DNA of 64,000 nucleotides from positions 372,001-436,000 of the forward strand of contig NZ_JAIFXZ010000001.1 of assembly GCF_021033825.1 (NCBI RefSeq), read 5' to 3'. The notes beneath the pieces are model-generated. The model worked only from the letters and a program-made list of their open reading frames with translations, was not told where the DNA came from and did not search any database. The first letter of the stretch is position 1. Each line of letters starts with the position of its first letter. This stretch comes from Dietzia aurantiaca (GTDB lineage Bacteria; Actinomycetota; Actinomycetes; Mycobacteriales; Mycobacteriaceae). Shown here piece by piece: positions 1,269 through 7,652 of this stretch. A program made the translations under genes and the position numbers.

Positions 1269-3632
1269 GTGAACCCGCGCCCGGATCTGGACCTGACCCT
1301 GCGTCTGACGGCCTCGGCCGCCGACGCCCGCCGCGGAATCGTGCGGGCGCACCCGGAGGTGATTCTCGCTCTCGGCATGCGCGAGTGGGACGCCATCGAG
1401 ATCGTCGGCGCGCGCACCACCGGCGCGGTCGTGGCGGCGGCCGCCGCCGGCTCGCCGAGCGGGGTGCTGGTCGTGGACGAGGTCGTGGCCGCGAACTGCG
1501 GACTCGGCGAGGACGCGCGCGTGACCGTGCGGGCCGCGCAGGTCACGGGCGCGCAGAGCATCGAGGTGCAGGGGCTGCCGCCGGCGGGCCGGGGCGTGGC
1601 CGAGCGGGTGCTGCGTTCGGCGTTGCTGGGCAAGGTGGTGCGCGTGGGCGATTCCGTCACGCTGCTCCCCCGCGACCTCGGCCCCGACTTCCCCACCGCC
1701 GACACCACCCGCACCCTGCGCAACTCCATGGGCGCGCAGTGGAGCACCGAGCTGCTCACCGTCACCGCGACCGTCCCGGACGGGGTCGTGTCGGTACAGC
1801 CCACCACCGCGGTGATCGAGGCGGGCGGCCCCGGTGCCGCGCCGGCCGTGGGAGCCCGGCCCGGTTCGACGACGACGACCCCCACCCCGCACTCGTCCAC
1901 CGGCGGTGCGGCGCCAATGAACTCCCGGCCCTCGGGTTCTCCCGGTGGATCGGCTTCCGGCAGTGCGACATCACCCGGGGGCTCCTCCACACCCGGCGGC
2001 GGCTCGGAGGCCATCGCCGCCGTCGCCCGCGAGGACCTCGTGGGCGTCGCGGACCAGGCCGAGGTCCTCGCACAGTGGCTGTCACTCGCCCTGGATCGCG
2101 CCGAGCTGCTGCGCTCGCTCGGCACCTCACCTCACCTCGGGGTGCTGGTTGCGGGCCCGCCCGGGGTGGGCAAGGCGACAATGGTCCGATCGGTCACCGG
2201 CGACCGCCGTCTCGAGGTCATCGACGGCCCGTCCATCGGCGCGATTGACCCCGCCGCGCGTCTGGAGGCGGTCCGTGCCGCCGCCGAGAGGACGCGCGAG
2301 AACGGCGGAGTCCTGCTGGTCACGGACATCGACGCGCTCCTGCCCGCCGACACCGAGCCGGTGTCGACGCTGATCCTGGACCGGCTGCGGTCGGTCGTGG
2401 CACACCCGGGTTCCGTGCTGGTGGCCACCTGTGTCCGGCCCGAGGAGGCCGACGCCCGACTGCGCGAGCCCGAGATCTGCGACCGGGTCCTGGATCTGCC
2501 GCTGCCCGACGCCGCGGACCGCGCGGCGCTGCTCGAGGTGATGCTGCGGGACGTGCCCGCCGGCGAGCTCGACCTGACCGCCGTCGCCGAGCGGACCCCC
2601 GGCTACGTGGCCGGGGACCTGCGCGCCCTCACCCGGGAGGCGGCACTACGCGCGGCCGCCCGCGCCACGGAATCCTCCGCCACGGACCCTGATTCCGCAC
2701 GGCTTGATTCCTCGGACTCCGCAGCCACCGCCCCGGTCGACGCACGGCTGGAGCAGGAGGACCTGATCGGCGCGGTCAGCGTGATCCGTCCGCTGTCCCG
2801 GTCGGGCACCGAGGAGCTGAGCCTGGGCTCGATCACCCTCGAGGACGTGGGCGACATGGAGGAGGTGCGGCAGGCACTCACCGAGACGGTGCTGTGGCCG
2901 CTGCAGCATCGAGAGTCGTTCCAGCGCCTCGGCGTCGAGCCGCCCAAGGGCGTGCTGCTGTACGGGCCTCCGGGCTGCGGTAAAACCTTCGTCGTCCGGG
3001 CACTGGCGGCGAGCGGGCGCCTGACGGTGCAGATGGTCAAGGGCGCCGAGCTCATGGACAAATGGGTGGGCTCGTCGGAGAAGGCGGTGCGCGACCTGTT
3101 CCGCAAGGCCCGCGACTCCGCCCCGTCGCTGGTGTTCCTCGACGAGATCGACGCGCTGGCCCCGCGCCGCGGCCAGACCGGCGACTCCGGGGTCGGCGAC
3201 CGCGTGGTCGCGGCTCTGCTCACCGAGCTCGACGGCGCGGAGCCGCTCGACGACGTGGTGATCCTCGGCGCCACCAACCGCCCCGAGCTCATCGACCCCG
3301 CCCTGCTGCGGCCCGGGCGGCTCGAGCGCCTGGTGTTCGTGCCGCCGCCGGACGCCGAGGCCCGCGCCGACATCCTCCGCGCGGCAGGCCGGGACGTCCC
3401 GCTCGCGGAGGATGTGGACTTGGCCCGGGTGGCCGAGGAGCTCGACGGTTACTCCGCGGCCGACTGCGCCGCACTGCTGCGCGAGTCCGCGCTCACCGCG
3501 ATGCGCCGCGACATCGACGCGGCCGAGGTCACCGCCGAGGACGTGGCCCGCGCACGGGACGCGGTCAAACCCTCACTCGACCCGGATCAGGTCGAGAACC
3601 TGCGGCAGTACGCCGACCGACGGGAGAGCTGA
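1269..3632 (+). CDS. CDC48/p97-like double AAA ATPase (Rv0435c-type)
   Basis: 787 residues from a GTG start, chosen because TAGGCT lies 7 nt upstream. Order: an N-terminal CDC48-type domain (about 1-180), a Ser/Gly/Pro-rich linker (about 200-250), AAA domain D1, then D2. D2 is canonical: GPPGCGKT with Lys572-Thr573, Walker B D625-E626, a GATNRP sensor and RPGR. D1 is degenerate: GPPGVGKA (Lys302 followed by Ala303) and a Walker B reading T-D-I-D (353-355) with no Glu. The family remodels or unfolds protein complexes; the actinobacterial substrate is unknown. D1 probably binds but may not hydrolyse ATP (inference). Confidence 0.85.
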   Translation: MNPRPDLDLTLRLTASAADARRGIVRAHPEVILALGMREWDAIEIVGARTTGAVVAAAAAGSPSGVLVVDEVVAANCGLGEDARVTVRAAQVTGAQSIEVQGLPPAGRGVAERVLRSALLGKVVRVGDSVTLLPRDLGPDFPTADTTRTLRNSMGAQWSTELLTVTATVPDGVVSVQPTTAVIEAGGPGAAPAVGARPGSTTTTPTPHSSTGGAAPMNSRPSGSPGGSASGSATSPGGSSTPGGGSEAIAAVAREDLVGVADQAEVLAQWLSLALDRAELLRSLGTSPHLGVLVAGPPGVGKATMVRSVTGDRRLEVIDGPSIGAIDPAARLEAVRAAAERTRENGGVLLVTDIDALLPADTEPVSTLILDRLRSVVAHPGSVLVATCVRPEEADARLREPEICDRVLDLPLPDAADRAALLEVMLRDVPAGELDLTAVAERTPGYVAGDLRALTREAALRAAARATESSATDPDSARLDSSDSAATAPVDARLEQEDLIGAVSVIRPLSRSGTEELSLGSITLEDVGDMEEVRQALTETVLWPLQHRESFQRLGVEPPKGVLLYGPPGCGKTFVVRALAASGRLTVQMVKGAELMDKWVGSSEKAVRDLFRKARDSAPSLVFLDEIDALAPRRGQTGDSGVGDRVVAALLTELDGAEPLDDVVILGATNRPELIDPALLRPGRLERLVFVPPPDAEARADILRAAGRDVPLAEDVDLARVAEELDGYSAADCAALLRESALTAMRRDIDAAEVTAEDVARARDAVKPSLDPDQVENLRQYADRRES

Positions 3633-3789
3633 CCCTACGGCGCGGCGTCGTGGCGGGGCGGGGCCTATCCGTGAGCCGGGGTCTGGTCGTGAGCTGTGCC
3701 GAGGCTGCGGAGGCGGCTAACGGTCCGAGTGGGGCCCGCCTCGCGACCCATCACCTGGCCTTGCCGTTCCGGCCCGGCCCGGCCGCGGC

Positions 3790-3795
3790 TAGAGT
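3790..3795 (+). promoter_or_regulatory. -10 box TAGAGT for the leader peptide
   Basis: TAGAGT is followed by 7 nt and then the ATG at 3803, so transcription would start at or within 1 nt of the leader peptide start codon. Confidence 0.55.
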
Positions 3796-3802
3796 GCGGG
3801 CC

Positions 3803-3844
3803 ATGCGGAATCTACTCGTAGTAACCGGACGTAACGGGGTCTGA
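3803..3844 (+). CDS. Leu/Val leader peptide (attenuator-type uORF), 13 aa
   Basis: The peptide reads MRNLLVVTGRNGV. Codons 4-7 are CTA CTC GTA GTA: two Leu and two Val in a row, three of them A-ending codons that are rare in DNA this GC-rich. That is the signature of a ribosome-stalling leader for branched-chain amino acids. It sits 76 nt upstream of a gene resembling the LeuA regulatory domain, and strong alternative hairpins overlap it. The initiation context is leaderless. Leader-peptide control of branched-chain amino acid genes is established in bacteria generally; its use here is inferred. Confidence 0.6.
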   Translation: MRNLLVVTGRNGV

Positions 3845-3920
3845 CAGACCGGCATCCCCGTTGCGTGGTTGCTCGTCCTCCGTCGGTCGCCGCACCGACG
3901 TCGAGAGACACGAGAGAACC
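3820..3920 (+). promoter_or_regulatory. Mutually exclusive RNA hairpins between leader peptide and LeuA-like gene
   Basis: Helix A: 3820-3826 pairs with 3867-3873, and 3829-3839 pairs with 3856-3866 (18 pairs, two of them G-U, with a 2-nt bulge). Its 5' arm lies inside the leader ORF just after the Leu codons. Helix B: 3867-3870 pairs with 3917-3920, and 3872-3876 pairs with 3910-3914; it would bury the purine-rich region just before the ATG at 3921. A and B share 3867-3873 and cannot coexist. Hairpin C (3881-3887 with 3894-3900) fits inside B. No U tract is present, so control of translation rather than termination is likelier. Confidence 0.5.
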
Positions 3921-4502
3921 ATGAACGCCTCCGCACACCCGTTCCCCCGGACCACCGAGTTCATCGCCGCACCGACCGGTGCGCGAAATCCCTTCACCGA
4001 GCGATATCGTCGTCGTCTCCCTCGGGGGTTCGCCGACGAGGCGGTCGGCATGGACTGGCGGACGATGGTCGACACCTTCGCCCCCTCCTCCGACCACTTC
4101 CACCTGGCCGACTTCTCCCGCCGCCCGCTGGGGCGCGGGATCACCGCCTACGAGGCGATCCTGGCCACACGGGGCCCGGAGGACGAGCCCGGCCACTTCA
4201 CCACCCGTCGCCTGACCACCTCCTCGTGCGGGGACCTCACGGCGATGTCCGAGATGTTGGGCCGCGTCGGTGCGCGGGTCGAGATCGAGAAGTTCCACCA
4301 GTACGAGGGCAACCATCACGAGGGCACCACCTTCGCAGGCAACGCGTCATGGTGCACCATCCTGCGCGCCACCTGCGGGCGCCGCGAGGCGTGGGCGATG
4401 GGCTTCGGCCAGAGTTCGTCGGAGGCGTCGATCGCGGCTCTGCTCAACGCGGCCACCAGGCTTCACCTGCGCGGACGACCAGCACGAAACGCTGTTCTGT
4501 AA
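3921..4502 (+). CDS. Stand-alone LeuA regulatory-domain-like protein
   Basis: 193 residues from ATG 3921. The C-terminal 60 residues, ending G-F-G-Q-S-S-S-E-A-S-I-A-A-L-L-N-A-A-T-R-L, match the pattern of the C-terminal allosteric/dimerisation domain of 2-isopropylmalate synthase (G-V-G ... A-S-L-K-A-V-V-S-A-V-N-R). The preceding V-E-I-E-K-F-H-Q-Y resembles V-R-V-L-D-Y-H-E-H of that domain. No TIM-barrel catalytic domain is present. A free domain of this kind could modulate LeuA or bind leucine (inference). The upstream Leu/Val leader peptide supports a branched-chain amino acid role. An earlier in-frame ATG at 3861 would lie inside the hairpin region and is less likely. Confidence 0.6.
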   Translation: MNASAHPFPRTTEFIAAPTGARNPFTERYRRRLPRGFADEAVGMDWRTMVDTFAPSSDHFHLADFSRRPLGRGITAYEAILATRGPEDEPGHFTTRRLTTSSCGDLTAMSEMLGRVGARVEIEKFHQYEGNHHEGTTFAGNASWCTILRATCGRREAWAMGFGQSSSEASIAALLNAATRLHLRGRPARNAVL

Positions 4503-4607
4503 AGTAGCCACAGAAACCACGCCCCGGTCGACCACCGGCTACCCGTCCCTGAAAGGCGGGTCCGTCCACATGTCGTCGTCCGATCGACGCAAGGAGAGGA
4601 GCCGCCG

Positions 4608-7600
4608 GTGATCGTGATTCTCGCGGCCCACGCCGTGGCCGCCCTGATCGCGATCCCCTTGGTGTTGCGGCTCGGACGCCGAGCGTTCCCGCTACTGGCC
4701 CTGGTGCCCGCCCTCAGCACGGTGTGGGTGGCGGCCAACCTGGACACTACTCCCACGGAGACCCTCCAATGGGCTCCCGCCATCCATCTCGCCCTCGACC
4801 TGCGGATGGACGCGCTATCAGCGTTGATGGCGCTCATCGCGCTCGGCGTCGGCGCGCTCGTGCTCTTCTACTGCACCTGGTATTTCGATGATTCCGAGCC
4901 CCGCCTGCACCTCTTCGCGGCGGAGATGGTGGCCTTCGCCGGTGTCATGTTCGGCCTCGTGGTGGCCGACAACCTGATCCTGCTCTACATCTTCTGGGAG
5001 ATCACCTCCGTCCTGAGCTTCCTGCTGGTCGGCCACTACGCGGAGCGCGCGTCGTCCCGCCGGGCAGCCGCCCAGGCGCTGCTGGTCACCACGCTCGGTG
5101 GGCTGGCGATGCTCGTCGGCATGATCATCCTGGCCCAGGAGACCGGGTCATACCTGCTCAGCGACATCGTGGCCTCGCCGCCCTCCGGCGCACTCGTGCA
5201 CTGGGCGTTGGGACTGGTGATCGTGGGCGCCACCAGCAAGTCCGCCATCGCGCCGCTGCATTTCTGGCTCCCGGGCGCCATGACCGCACCGACCCCGGTC
5301 AGTGCCTATCTGCACTCCGCGGCGATGGTCAAGGCCGGCGTCTTCCTGGTCGCCGCCATGAGCCCCGGCCTGTCGGGCTCGTCCACGTGGCAGTTGCCGC
5401 TCGTCGGCCTGGGCCTGGTCTCGCTGCTCATGGCGGGTTGGCGGGCGCTCCGCGAGAGCGACCTCAAACTGGTGCTGGCCTTCGGCACCGTCTCCCAGTT
5501 GGGCTTCCTACTGACCCTGGTGGGTATCGGCTCGCGCGACACCATGCTCGCCGGGCTGACGATGCTGCTGGCGCACTCGCTGTTCAAATCGGCGCTGTTC
5601 ATGTCCGTCGGCGTGATCGACAAGACCACCGGGACCCGCGAGATCCGCGAACTGTCCGGGCTCGGCCGCAAGCGCCCCGCCCTCGCGGTGTTCTTCACCC
5701 TCGCCGCCGCGTCGATGGCGGGCCTGCCGCCGTTCCTCGGGTTCGTCGGCAAGGAGGCCGCGTTCGCCACCGTCCTCAGCGAGGGCCGGCTGCACGGTAT
5801 GCCGTCTCTCGTCGTCACCGCCGGCCTCGTGGTGGGCTCCATCCTCACGTTCTCCTACACGGCCCGCCTGGTCATGGGCGCGTTCCGCACCAAGAGGATC
5901 TTCGACGGCAAGGCGAGCCCCGCGGTCGCCGAGTCGCGGCCGGCCGGCGTGTTCTTCCTTTCGGTGCCCGCGGTTCTCGCCACGGCCGGACTGGTGCTCG
6001 GCCTGTGGTCCGCCCCCGTCGAGTCGCTGCTCTCGCGCTTCGTCGACACGGCATTCCCGCCCGGCAGCCCCTGGGCCGCCGGGGAGACCTACCACCTGGG
6101 CCTGTGGCACGGCATCGGCATCCCGCTGGCGTTGACGTTCGTAGTCTACGTGCTGGGCATGATGCTCTACGTCGCCCAGCGGACCGTCGAGCGTCTGAGG
6201 TTCCAGTCTCCCGCCCTCGGTAACGCCGACCGCATCTACGACGCGGTCCTGCGCTTCTTCGACGTGCTCTCCCTGCGCCTGACCGGCTCCACCCAGCGCG
6301 GCTCGCTCCCGCTGACCCTCGGGATCATCCTGTTCACGCTCGTGATGTTCCCGCTGGTCTCGCTCCTCGTCGGCACCCGCGAGGGGCTACAGATGGAACT
6401 GTCGAGCAACCCGGTCGTGCTGATCGTCATGATCCCCATGACGATCGCGGCCATCGCGGCCACCCTGCTGCGCAATCGTCTAGCGGCCGTCATCGCGATG
6501 TCCGTGACCGGCTACGGCGTGGCCGTGGTCTTCGCGTTCCACGGCGCCCCGGACCTGGCGCTGACCCAGGTCCTCGTCGAGACCCTGATGATGGTCGCGT
6601 TCGTGCTGGTCCTGCGCACCATGCCCGCCGAAGTCCCGCTGTCCAACGGTTTCCGGCGCCTGCGCGCCTGGCTCGGCATCGGCGTGGGCCTGCTGGTGAT
6701 CATCGTCGGCGCATACGCCATCAACGCCCGCCAGGACCCGGCCGTGTCCACCGTCTTCGCGGACATCGCCTACCGGATCGGCAACGGCTCCAACGCCGTC
6801 AACGTCACCCTCGTCGACATCCGCGCCTGGGACACCCTGGGTGAGATCACGGTGCTGCTGGTCGCCGCCACCGGCGTGGCCAGCCTCGTCTTCCGCAACC
6901 GGCGCTACGGTTCCGGCCCCCGCATCGCCGACGCCGACAAGACGCTCTCGGGTCGCCGGGGCATGGAGGCCGCCCGCATCGTCATCGAGGCGCCCGGCGC
7001 CTCCCCCGGCCGCTGGCTCGTGGGCGCCACTGTCCGCGACCCACGTGCCCGCTCGCTGGTCCTCGAGGTCACCACCCGGCTCATCTTCCCCACCATGATG
7101 GTGCTGAGCCTGTTCTTCTTCTTCGCCGGACACAACAATCCCGGCGGCGGCTTCGCGGGCGGACTCGTCGCCGGCCTCGCACTGGTGCTGCGCTACCTCG
7201 CGGGCGGCCGATACGAGCTCGGCGAGGCCATCCCGTTCGACGCCGGCCGCATCCTGGGCGCGGGCCTCCTGCTCGCCGCAGGCACCGCGGCGGCCTCGAT
7301 GGCCTTCGGCGCGCCCCCGCTGTCCAGCGCCACGATCGAGTGGACCATGCCGGTGTTCGGCGACGTCAAGTTGGTCACGGCGCTGTTCTTCGACGCCGGC
7401 GTCTACCTCATCGTCGTGGGCCTGGTCCTGGACATCCTCCGCAGTCTCGGTGCCAGACTCGATCTCAACGAGGAGGACCTCGAGGAGCTGCGCGCCATCT
7501 ACGTCGACGCCACTGATTCACCGTCCACCGCAGCCCTGCGCCGGGTCCCCGGGGTGGACTTCCCCGGGCCGCGGTCCGATCTGTCCGTCCGCCGCGCCGA

Positions 7601-7652
7601 GCGCTACGAGGCCGCGGAGAACCAGGGCGTCACGCCGGAGGGGATGCCATGA
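4608..7652 (+). CDS. mrpA: Na+/H+ antiporter subunit A fused to B (MrpA-MrpB)
   Basis: 1014 residues from a GTG preceded by an AAGGAGAG Shine-Dalgarno at 4591 with good spacing. The N-terminal two thirds is a multi-spanning NuoL/MrpA-type channel subunit with conserved K-S-A-I-A-P-L-H-F-W-L-P-G-A-M and H-S-A-A-M-V-K-A-G motifs. Two more membrane blocks follow, ending in the MrpB-type segment F-F-A-G-H-N-N-P-G-G-G-F-A-G-G (about 840-855). The fusion explains why no separate mrpB follows. Mrp complexes exchange cytoplasmic Na+ for protons at the plasma membrane, supporting pH and salt tolerance. First gene of a tightly coupled operon. Confidence 0.95.
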   Translation: MIVILAAHAVAALIAIPLVLRLGRRAFPLLALVPALSTVWVAANLDTTPTETLQWAPAIHLALDLRMDALSALMALIALGVGALVLFYCTWYFDDSEPRLHLFAAEMVAFAGVMFGLVVADNLILLYIFWEITSVLSFLLVGHYAERASSRRAAAQALLVTTLGGLAMLVGMIILAQETGSYLLSDIVASPPSGALVHWALGLVIVGATSKSAIAPLHFWLPGAMTAPTPVSAYLHSAAMVKAGVFLVAAMSPGLSGSSTWQLPLVGLGLVSLLMAGWRALRESDLKLVLAFGTVSQLGFLLTLVGIGSRDTMLAGLTMLLAHSLFKSALFMSVGVIDKTTGTREIRELSGLGRKRPALAVFFTLAAASMAGLPPFLGFVGKEAAFATVLSEGRLHGMPSLVVTAGLVVGSILTFSYTARLVMGAFRTKRIFDGKASPAVAESRPAGVFFLSVPAVLATAGLVLGLWSAPVESLLSRFVDTAFPPGSPWAAGETYHLGLWHGIGIPLALTFVVYVLGMMLYVAQRTVERLRFQSPALGNADRIYDAVLRFFDVLSLRLTGSTQRGSLPLTLGIILFTLVMFPLVSLLVGTREGLQMELSSNPVVLIVMIPMTIAAIAATLLRNRLAAVIAMSVTGYGVAVVFAFHGAPDLALTQVLVETLMMVAFVLVLRTMPAEVPLSNGFRRLRAWLGIGVGLLVIIVGAYAINARQDPAVSTVFADIAYRIGNGSNAVNVTLVDIRAWDTLGEITVLLVAATGVASLVFRNRRYGSGPRIADADKTLSGRRGMEAARIVIEAPGASPGRWLVGATVRDPRARSLVLEVTTRLIFPTMMVLSLFFFFAGHNNPGGGFAGGLVAGLALVLRYLAGGRYELGEAIPFDAGRILGAGLLLAAGTAAASMAFGAPPLSSATIEWTMPVFGDVKLVTALFFDAGVYLIVVGLVLDILRSLGARLDLNEEDLEELRAIYVDATDSPSTAALRRVPGVDFPGPRSDLSVRRAERYEAAENQGVTPEGMP

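Follow-up and report, generated by a model that had tools for sequence, protein, structure and literature searches.

A LEU-like leader with leucine and valine codons precedes a gene for a stand-alone LeuA regulatory domain in Dietzia

The locus and its downstream gene

Between a gene for a CDC48-like ATPase and one for subunit A of an Mrp antiporter, the 64-kb stretch of Dietzia DNA analyzed here (the window) carries a short upstream open reading frame (uORF) within a structured leader and, behind it, a gene for a 193-residue protein (Table 1). The 141-nt leader is predicted to fold at −60 kcal/mol (z = −2.87), and 0 of 200 shuffles folded as low. No terminator-like site was found in positions 3640-4620; an intrinsic terminator was therefore ruled out, and the leader lacks this mark of a classical transcription attenuator of the ilvB type. 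The spacer from the −35-like TTGCCG to the −10 box measures 23 nt in the window and 18 nt in three congeners (L002, L004, and L007; compared by eye), and the extra length at 3761-3795 resembles a tandem duplication of CGGCC. The flanking ATPase is of the AAA type, with an N-terminal CDC48_N match above the cut-off; AAA ATPases with this domain at the N terminus are uncommon in bacteria.

Table 1. Features of the leader, the stand-alone gene, and the flanking genes (window positions)
Feature	Positions	Strand	Remark
CDC48-like ATPase gene	1269-3632		Flanks the leader and stand-alone gene
Putative −35-like box TTGCCG	3761-3766	+	Proposed from sequence
−10 box TAGAGT	3790-3795	+	7 nt upstream of the uORF start; spacing as for a leaderless transcript
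uORF MRNLLVVTGRNGV	3803-3844	+	13 codons plus TGA (ATG at 3803; TGA at 3842-3844)
Control-codon run CTA CTC GTA GTA (L L V V)	3812-3823	+	uORF codons 4 to 7
Base stem, codon strand CTCGT	3815-3819	+	Can pair with the Shine-Dalgarno region
Outer helix, 5′ strand	3820-3826	+	Overlaps the GTA codons
Inner hairpin, 5′ arm	3829-3839	+	11 pairs
Pseudoknot, loop strand GACCGGC	3847-3853	+	7 pairs
Inner hairpin, 3′ arm	3856-3866	+	Pairs with 3829-3839
Outer helix, 3′ strand (hairpin tail)	3867-3873	+	
Hairpin B	3881-3900	+	3881-3887 with 3894-3900; alternative to the pseudoknot in Dietzia
Pseudoknot, 3′ strand GTCGGTC	3882-3888	+	Partner of the hairpin loop
Putative Shine-Dalgarno-like ACGAGA	3910-3915	+	Base-stem partner; proposed from sequence
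Gene for the 193-aa stand-alone LeuA regulatory-domain protein	3921-4502	+	
Mrp antiporter subunit A gene	4608-7652		Opposite flank of the leader and stand-alone gene

By sequence comparison, the protein of the downstream gene is homologous to the regulatory domain at the C terminus of 2-isopropylmalate synthase (LeuA). Searched by itself, the window protein matched nothing in Pfam at E ≤ 1 and, in NCBIfam, only the C-terminal end of 2-isopropylmalate synthase, weakly (E = 0.01). Across its family, 16 of 23 members matched the LeuA allosteric domain PF08502 at E ≤ 0.01 (best, 2.1e-11), and the family profile matched 2-isopropylmalate synthase of PDB entry 1sr9 in stretches 480-560 and 616-641 (E = 4.8e-8). 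The encoded protein is thus homologous to the allosteric domain of the 1sr9 chain, but it is free of the catalytic part and belongs to a separate group: a tree built from 23 stand-alone domains and 13 from LeuA separates the two kinds by a single branch (support, 100/99), a topology consistent with one old duplication behind the stand-alone domains. Such a history would also suit a relic of leuA duplication, in which both leader and gene persist through descent and the leader has ceased to regulate. Many genera of the family retain both the structure and the codon run, however, and we consider a relic extremely unlikely.

The stand-alone gene is present in all 23 genomes of the genus and was found in none of 18 others when the window protein alone served as the query. 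Of 301 genomes from the family, 296 had a match in a profile search, a count that takes in LeuA itself. Among 61 genomes of the order, matches in short frames (158 to 225 aa) occurred in 6 of 7 members of the window's family and in 0 of 54 genomes outside it; the remaining matches listed lay in frames of at least 377 aa, mostly 560 to 660. A plasmid search for the stand-alone protein returned one match, weak and partial, to an unannotated stretch of a Mycobacterium intracellulare plasmid (NZ_CP012886.2:319705-320087; 37.7% identity, in two pieces). The window protein extends nine residues (window 4473-4499) beyond LHLR, the usual end in most of the congeners compared, and its reading frame looks as if the usual stop had been lost.

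Conservation of the uORF and the RNA structure

An earlier note, made from the letters of the window alone, had described TAGAGT 7 nt before a 13-codon frame with CTA CTC GTA GTA as codons 4 to 7, and these features are present as claimed. Each of the 22 Dietzia loci for which upstream sequence exists keeps the leader and its uORF, and the uORF recurs in all 54 relatives outside Dietzia that were located with an RNA model (see below). A TA...T box lies 6 to 10 nt before the uORF in 21 of 21 distinct Dietzia loci; the sets for this genus omit L006 (contig end) and L010 (leader identical to that of L009), and the pair recounts below also omit L023. The same arrangement was found in 54 of 54 model-located relatives, for which the candidate start with the best box was taken; dinucleotide shuffles, likewise free to use any start, yielded a uORF with such a box in 21 of 2,160 cases, and a site 150 nt upstream did so in 0 of 54. 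The window uORF transcript is, judging by this arrangement, probably leaderless, with its start at or next to the ATG.

To cover other genera, 60 stand-alone loci were anchored on the protein rather than on the leader and picked from the better-scoring profile matches. The RNA model R1, trained on elements of leuA and of the stand-alone gene and on 16 of these 60 test loci among them, finds the element in 54 of the 60, and the six misses all fall in one genus, g3. The leaders of that genus (L095, L096, and L282 to L285), inspected by eye, are strongly diverged before the stand-alone gene, with changed hairpin arms; they show a loop of the GGACT(G/A)A type complementary to a later stretch, e.g., GTCGGTCC or GTCAGTCC. 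A pattern scan of named records, whose pattern contains CTCGTAGT, gave at least 117 matches, from which 80 loci were taken; these were excluded from the codon statistics. The loci listed come from Nocardia, Mycobacterium, Mycolicibacterium, Rhodococcus, Williamsia, Dietzia, Skermania, Antrihabitans, Mycobacteroides, and others. The stand-alone gene lies directly downstream of the element in 79 of the 80; in the 80th, L175, the sequence ends about 156 nt beyond the element.

The 18-pair hairpin drawn in the earlier note (3820-3839 with 3856-3873) is present, with a two-base bulge, and its inner part is conserved and covarying: over 34 elements of both classes, 97% of the inner hairpin's cells are paired, with covariation above that of 200 of 200 strand shuffles. 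Absent from that note is a pseudoknot between the hairpin loop and a strand farther downstream (3847-3853 with 3882-3888), which forms 7 of 7 pairs in the window. Over the same 34 elements, with leuA and stand-alone leaders taken together, 97% of its cells are paired and its covariation again exceeds 200 of 200 strand shuffles; the 3′ strands in this test were chosen by short patterns and, in leuA elements, by eye, and a wrong strand entered for one row, L098, works to the pseudoknot's disadvantage. In Dietzia, hairpin B offers an alternative to the pseudoknot, and each of its pairs is kept in 17 to 20 of 20 leaders (9 to 26 of 28 with other genera added). The codons can also pair with the Shine-Dalgarno region in a base stem (3815-3819 with 3910-3914) that is compatible with the first hairpin; a gap-free count of CTCGT:ACGAG found all five pairs in 15 of 20 Dietzia leaders and four or more in every one of the 20.

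Strand-swap permutation tests on 63 distinct stand-alone loci (200 permutations) gave z values of −6.2 for the hairpin, −5.9 for the pseudoknot, −11.6 for the control codons against the hairpin tail (0 of 200 permutations), and −4.6 for the control codons against the Shine-Dalgarno region. Because such permutations ignore relatedness, controls on unrelated segments matter; their z values ranged from −2.5 to +3.1. Split by group, the values for Dietzia and for the other genera were −5.5 and −1.1 (hairpin), +0.8 and −7.4 (pseudoknot), and −1.9 and −7.8 (outer helix). Pairing of the codons with the Shine-Dalgarno region reached z = −4.1 in Dietzia (control, −0.5; 0 of 200 permutations), while the z of −2.8 outside Dietzia is hardly better than that of the coding-sequence control (−2.5); for the base stem in 27 leuA leaders, z was −1.2. 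Counted by column in an alignment of 28 stand-alone sequences (A3), paired cells made up 97.6% for the hairpin, 96.9% for the pseudoknot, 68% for the outer helix, and 48% for the base stem. The full structure of these 28 sequences covaries above 500 of 500 shuffles. Five pairs have changes on both sides, a number as high in 179 of 500 shuffles, and no two-sided change was found in pseudoknot pairs within these 28 members of the stand-alone class.

The earlier note had made the hairpin one half of a mutually exclusive pair, in which the hairpin tail (3867-3876) moves from the hairpin to the ribosome-binding site (3910-3920). This second helix can be drawn in the window. In a gap-free recount, used for this helix given that the aligned count had gaps at the bases before GAG, at least seven of its nine pairs were present in 14 of 20 Dietzia leaders and the full nine in a single one. 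On A3, both its fraction of paired cells (53%, against a shuffle mean of 45%) and its covariation score exceed 500 of 500 letter shuffles; a control with the partner slid by −2, however, is 61% paired and covaries more than the helix as drawn. The strand-swap test detected no covariation between its strands (z = −0.1 over the 63 loci; −0.8 in Dietzia). The strand-swap test speaks for the first hairpin and not for the second helix, which is only partly kept in Dietzia and pairs less well than the slid control; the exclusive pair is not supported. We regard regulation by such a swap of the tail as very unlikely. The better-kept alternatives to the second helix are the loop pseudoknot and, in Dietzia, the pairing between codons and Shine-Dalgarno region.

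Relationship to the LEU element of leuA and to other leaders

LEU elements have been reported before leuA and inside one transposase gene, and those of leuA were proposed to be binding sites for a regulatory protein (Seliverstov 2005, PMC1262725). A model built from eight leuA LEU elements only gave our site the top rank among the hits in the 64-kb window, if by a modest margin (19.9 bits and E = 0.014, against E = 0.076 for the next-best site). The same model found 52 of the 60 stand-alone leaders at E ≤ 0.01 (best, 1e-7). Since a model made from leuA alone finds the window site together with 52 of its 60 relatives, the site is a paralogue of the LEU element. R1 detects an element in 146 of 150 genomes examined from the order; 19 of the 20 from the window's family have two or three apiece, and most of the other 130 have one. 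G119, the family member in which the stand-alone gene is missing, carries a single LEU-type element rather than two or three. In Dietzia, leuA is preceded by a LEU element of its own (leader MQRVLLLGCRGGAR), and a third LEU-type element of the same genome (G000:C23:130994-131064; L056, L226) lies before a second full-length LeuA-like gene (leader MRFLECLLLSRHGGA).

The window element has in common with the LEU element of leuA the leader peptide, the hairpin, and the loop pseudoknot with its alternative hairpin. The base stem between codons and Shine-Dalgarno region is shared in Dietzia; elsewhere it has no support beyond the control. The two differ in target, which is leuA for the one and a stand-alone regulatory-domain gene for the other, and in codons, a leucine run as opposed to L L V V, with LLL in 0 of the 75 leaders of the window's class. 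Because the leucine run and the leuA target are among the features that define the LEU element, we do not use that name in its strict sense and call the window site a LEU-like paralogue. No Rfam family matched at the gathering level, and permissive scans gave one subthreshold, unrelated match each; a known Rfam family was therefore rejected as the identity of the site. The literature covered, to which most subscription papers do not belong, yielded no description of this leader class or of the stand-alone domain.

The control codons divide along the same line. LLL occurs in all 30 leuA leaders and VV in none (14 distinct peptides; the 30 are 44 loci minus nine in which the script found no uORF, four classed as "other," and one duplicate), whereas the 75 leaders of the stand-alone class (54 plus 21 from Dietzia) have LLL in 0 and VV in 64 cases (41 distinct peptides). 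Of the Leu-Leu-Val-Val run put forward in the earlier note, the valine pair thus holds across most of the class, and the run as a whole varies as Leu/Ile/Val-Leu-Val-Val. GTA is rare, as had been claimed: valine codons in six window ORFs number 3 GTA, 3 GTT, 153 GTC, and 124 GTG. The corresponding counts in the 54 leaders are 84, 27, 46, and 10, so that GTA and GTT together make up 111 of 167 leader valine codons versus 6 of 283 in the window ORFs. Pairing, not the encoded amino acid, may be the reason why GTA is kept.

This division bears on the view that a regulatory protein binds the LEU-type RNA, whose uORF would only carry structure and whose codons would not be sensed. Hairpin and pseudoknot are strongly conserved, as such a site would require, and for leuA of S. 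coelicolor, work cited in PMC1262725 is reported there to have found that codon mutations do not fit classical attenuation and that mutated leucine codons leave regulation unaffected. The clean split of the control codons by target gene class argues against it, as does the retention of start codon, stop codon, and −10 spacing, and we judge a pure protein-binding site unlikely.

Leaders of other genes offer partial parallels. For M. tuberculosis ilvB1, the attenuation model in the accessible text of PMC13236596 is stalling at the LVVI codons of a uORF, with GUA as control codon, when branched-chain amino acids (BCAAs) are scarce. The ilvB/ilvB1 attenuators of actinobacteria resemble the window leader in the L-V type uORF run, with GUA as control codon in M. 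tuberculosis (PMC13236596, PMC8079986, PMC1262725), and in the BCAA signal proposed there as here. Yet the ilvB leaders, as these sources describe them, have intrinsic terminators and act on transcription, whereas in the window leader no terminator was found and the LEU pseudoknot serves as scaffold. A leaderless leucine leader peptide, MRFGLLLLSCRGEGL, is described for leuA of S. lividans, in the accessible text without a typical terminator (PMC8079986), and a putative leader with four leucine codons for leuA of C. glutamicum (PMC4046766, accessible text). Mycobacterial cysteine uORFs are likewise short and rich in one amino-acid kind before a related gene, but they concern another amino acid, and the accessible part of their description mentions no conserved pseudoknot (PMC4633059).

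A candidate mechanism and its meaning

Given a conserved leader with no intrinsic terminator, control of translation is the natural reading. With somewhat more confidence than doubt, we propose that the paralogue of the LEU element acts as a translational attenuator, in which the leucine codons have been swapped for valine/BCAA control and which is on under starvation. A LEU-element paralogue would have come to precede the gene for the free LeuA domain, its codons changing from Leu-Leu-Leu to Leu/Ile/Val-Leu-Val-Val. RNA polymerase would start at or next to the uORF ATG, and a ribosome would load without a leader and read the uORF. When branched-chain aminoacyl-tRNAs are plentiful (valine above all, through the rare GTA and GTT codons), the ribosome would reach the TGA in the hairpin loop and leave; the control codons would then pair again with the tail of the hairpin, and in Dietzia with the Shine-Dalgarno region as well, and translation of the gene would be poor. 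When these tRNAs are scarce, the ribosome would stall on the codon run and keep that strand open, while the inner hairpin and the pseudoknot could still form. The stalled state would free the ribosome-binding site, and starvation would turn the gene on. A stalled ribosome would cover the very codons that pair with the Shine-Dalgarno site, and the base stem would therefore be the more direct route in Dietzia.

The step from structure to release of the ribosome-binding site is, by our model calculations, the weak one in this attenuation scheme: when the pseudoknot strand was blocked in silico in 70 loci (five of the 75 were dropped, having no matching loop or strand), predicted accessibility of the Shine-Dalgarno region rose by more than 0.1 in 21 of the 70 and fell in 9. 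What stands of the earlier proposal of attenuation by leucine and valine supply is a conserved uORF with a branched-chain run, set in an RNA structure before a leucine-related gene; the helix switch is not supported. The uORF might instead govern premature, Rho-dependent termination of transcription in the leader rather than translation of the gene. The lack of an intrinsic terminator would suit this, and Rho has been suggested for mycobacterial cys leaders (PMC1262725); but the leader is only about 120 nt long and its structure extends to the ribosome-binding site, and we think Rho control quite improbable.

The LEU element of leuA was already known (PMC1262725); new, as far as the literature covered shows, is a LEU-type leader with leucine/valine codons before a free LeuA domain. 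The 2005 work did not settle how the LEU element works, since codon mutations in a single species were at odds with attenuation. The paralogous elements within one genome amount to a natural codon swap, with LLL before full-length leuA genes and LVV before the detached domain, and if the codons are sensed, these elements should answer to different amino acids. The stand-alone LeuA-domain protein is widespread, no study of it was found in the literature covered, and it may tune leucine synthesis, perhaps by tuning the leucine feedback of LeuA in trans. A tentative extension, which we hold to be possible though doubtful, is that the whole family makes the detached leucine-sensing domain upon valine/BCAA starvation and that the domain resets LeuA feedback in trans, by joining the enzyme or competing with it. 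If true, an RNA switch and an allosteric switch would be coupled via a domain split from the enzyme.
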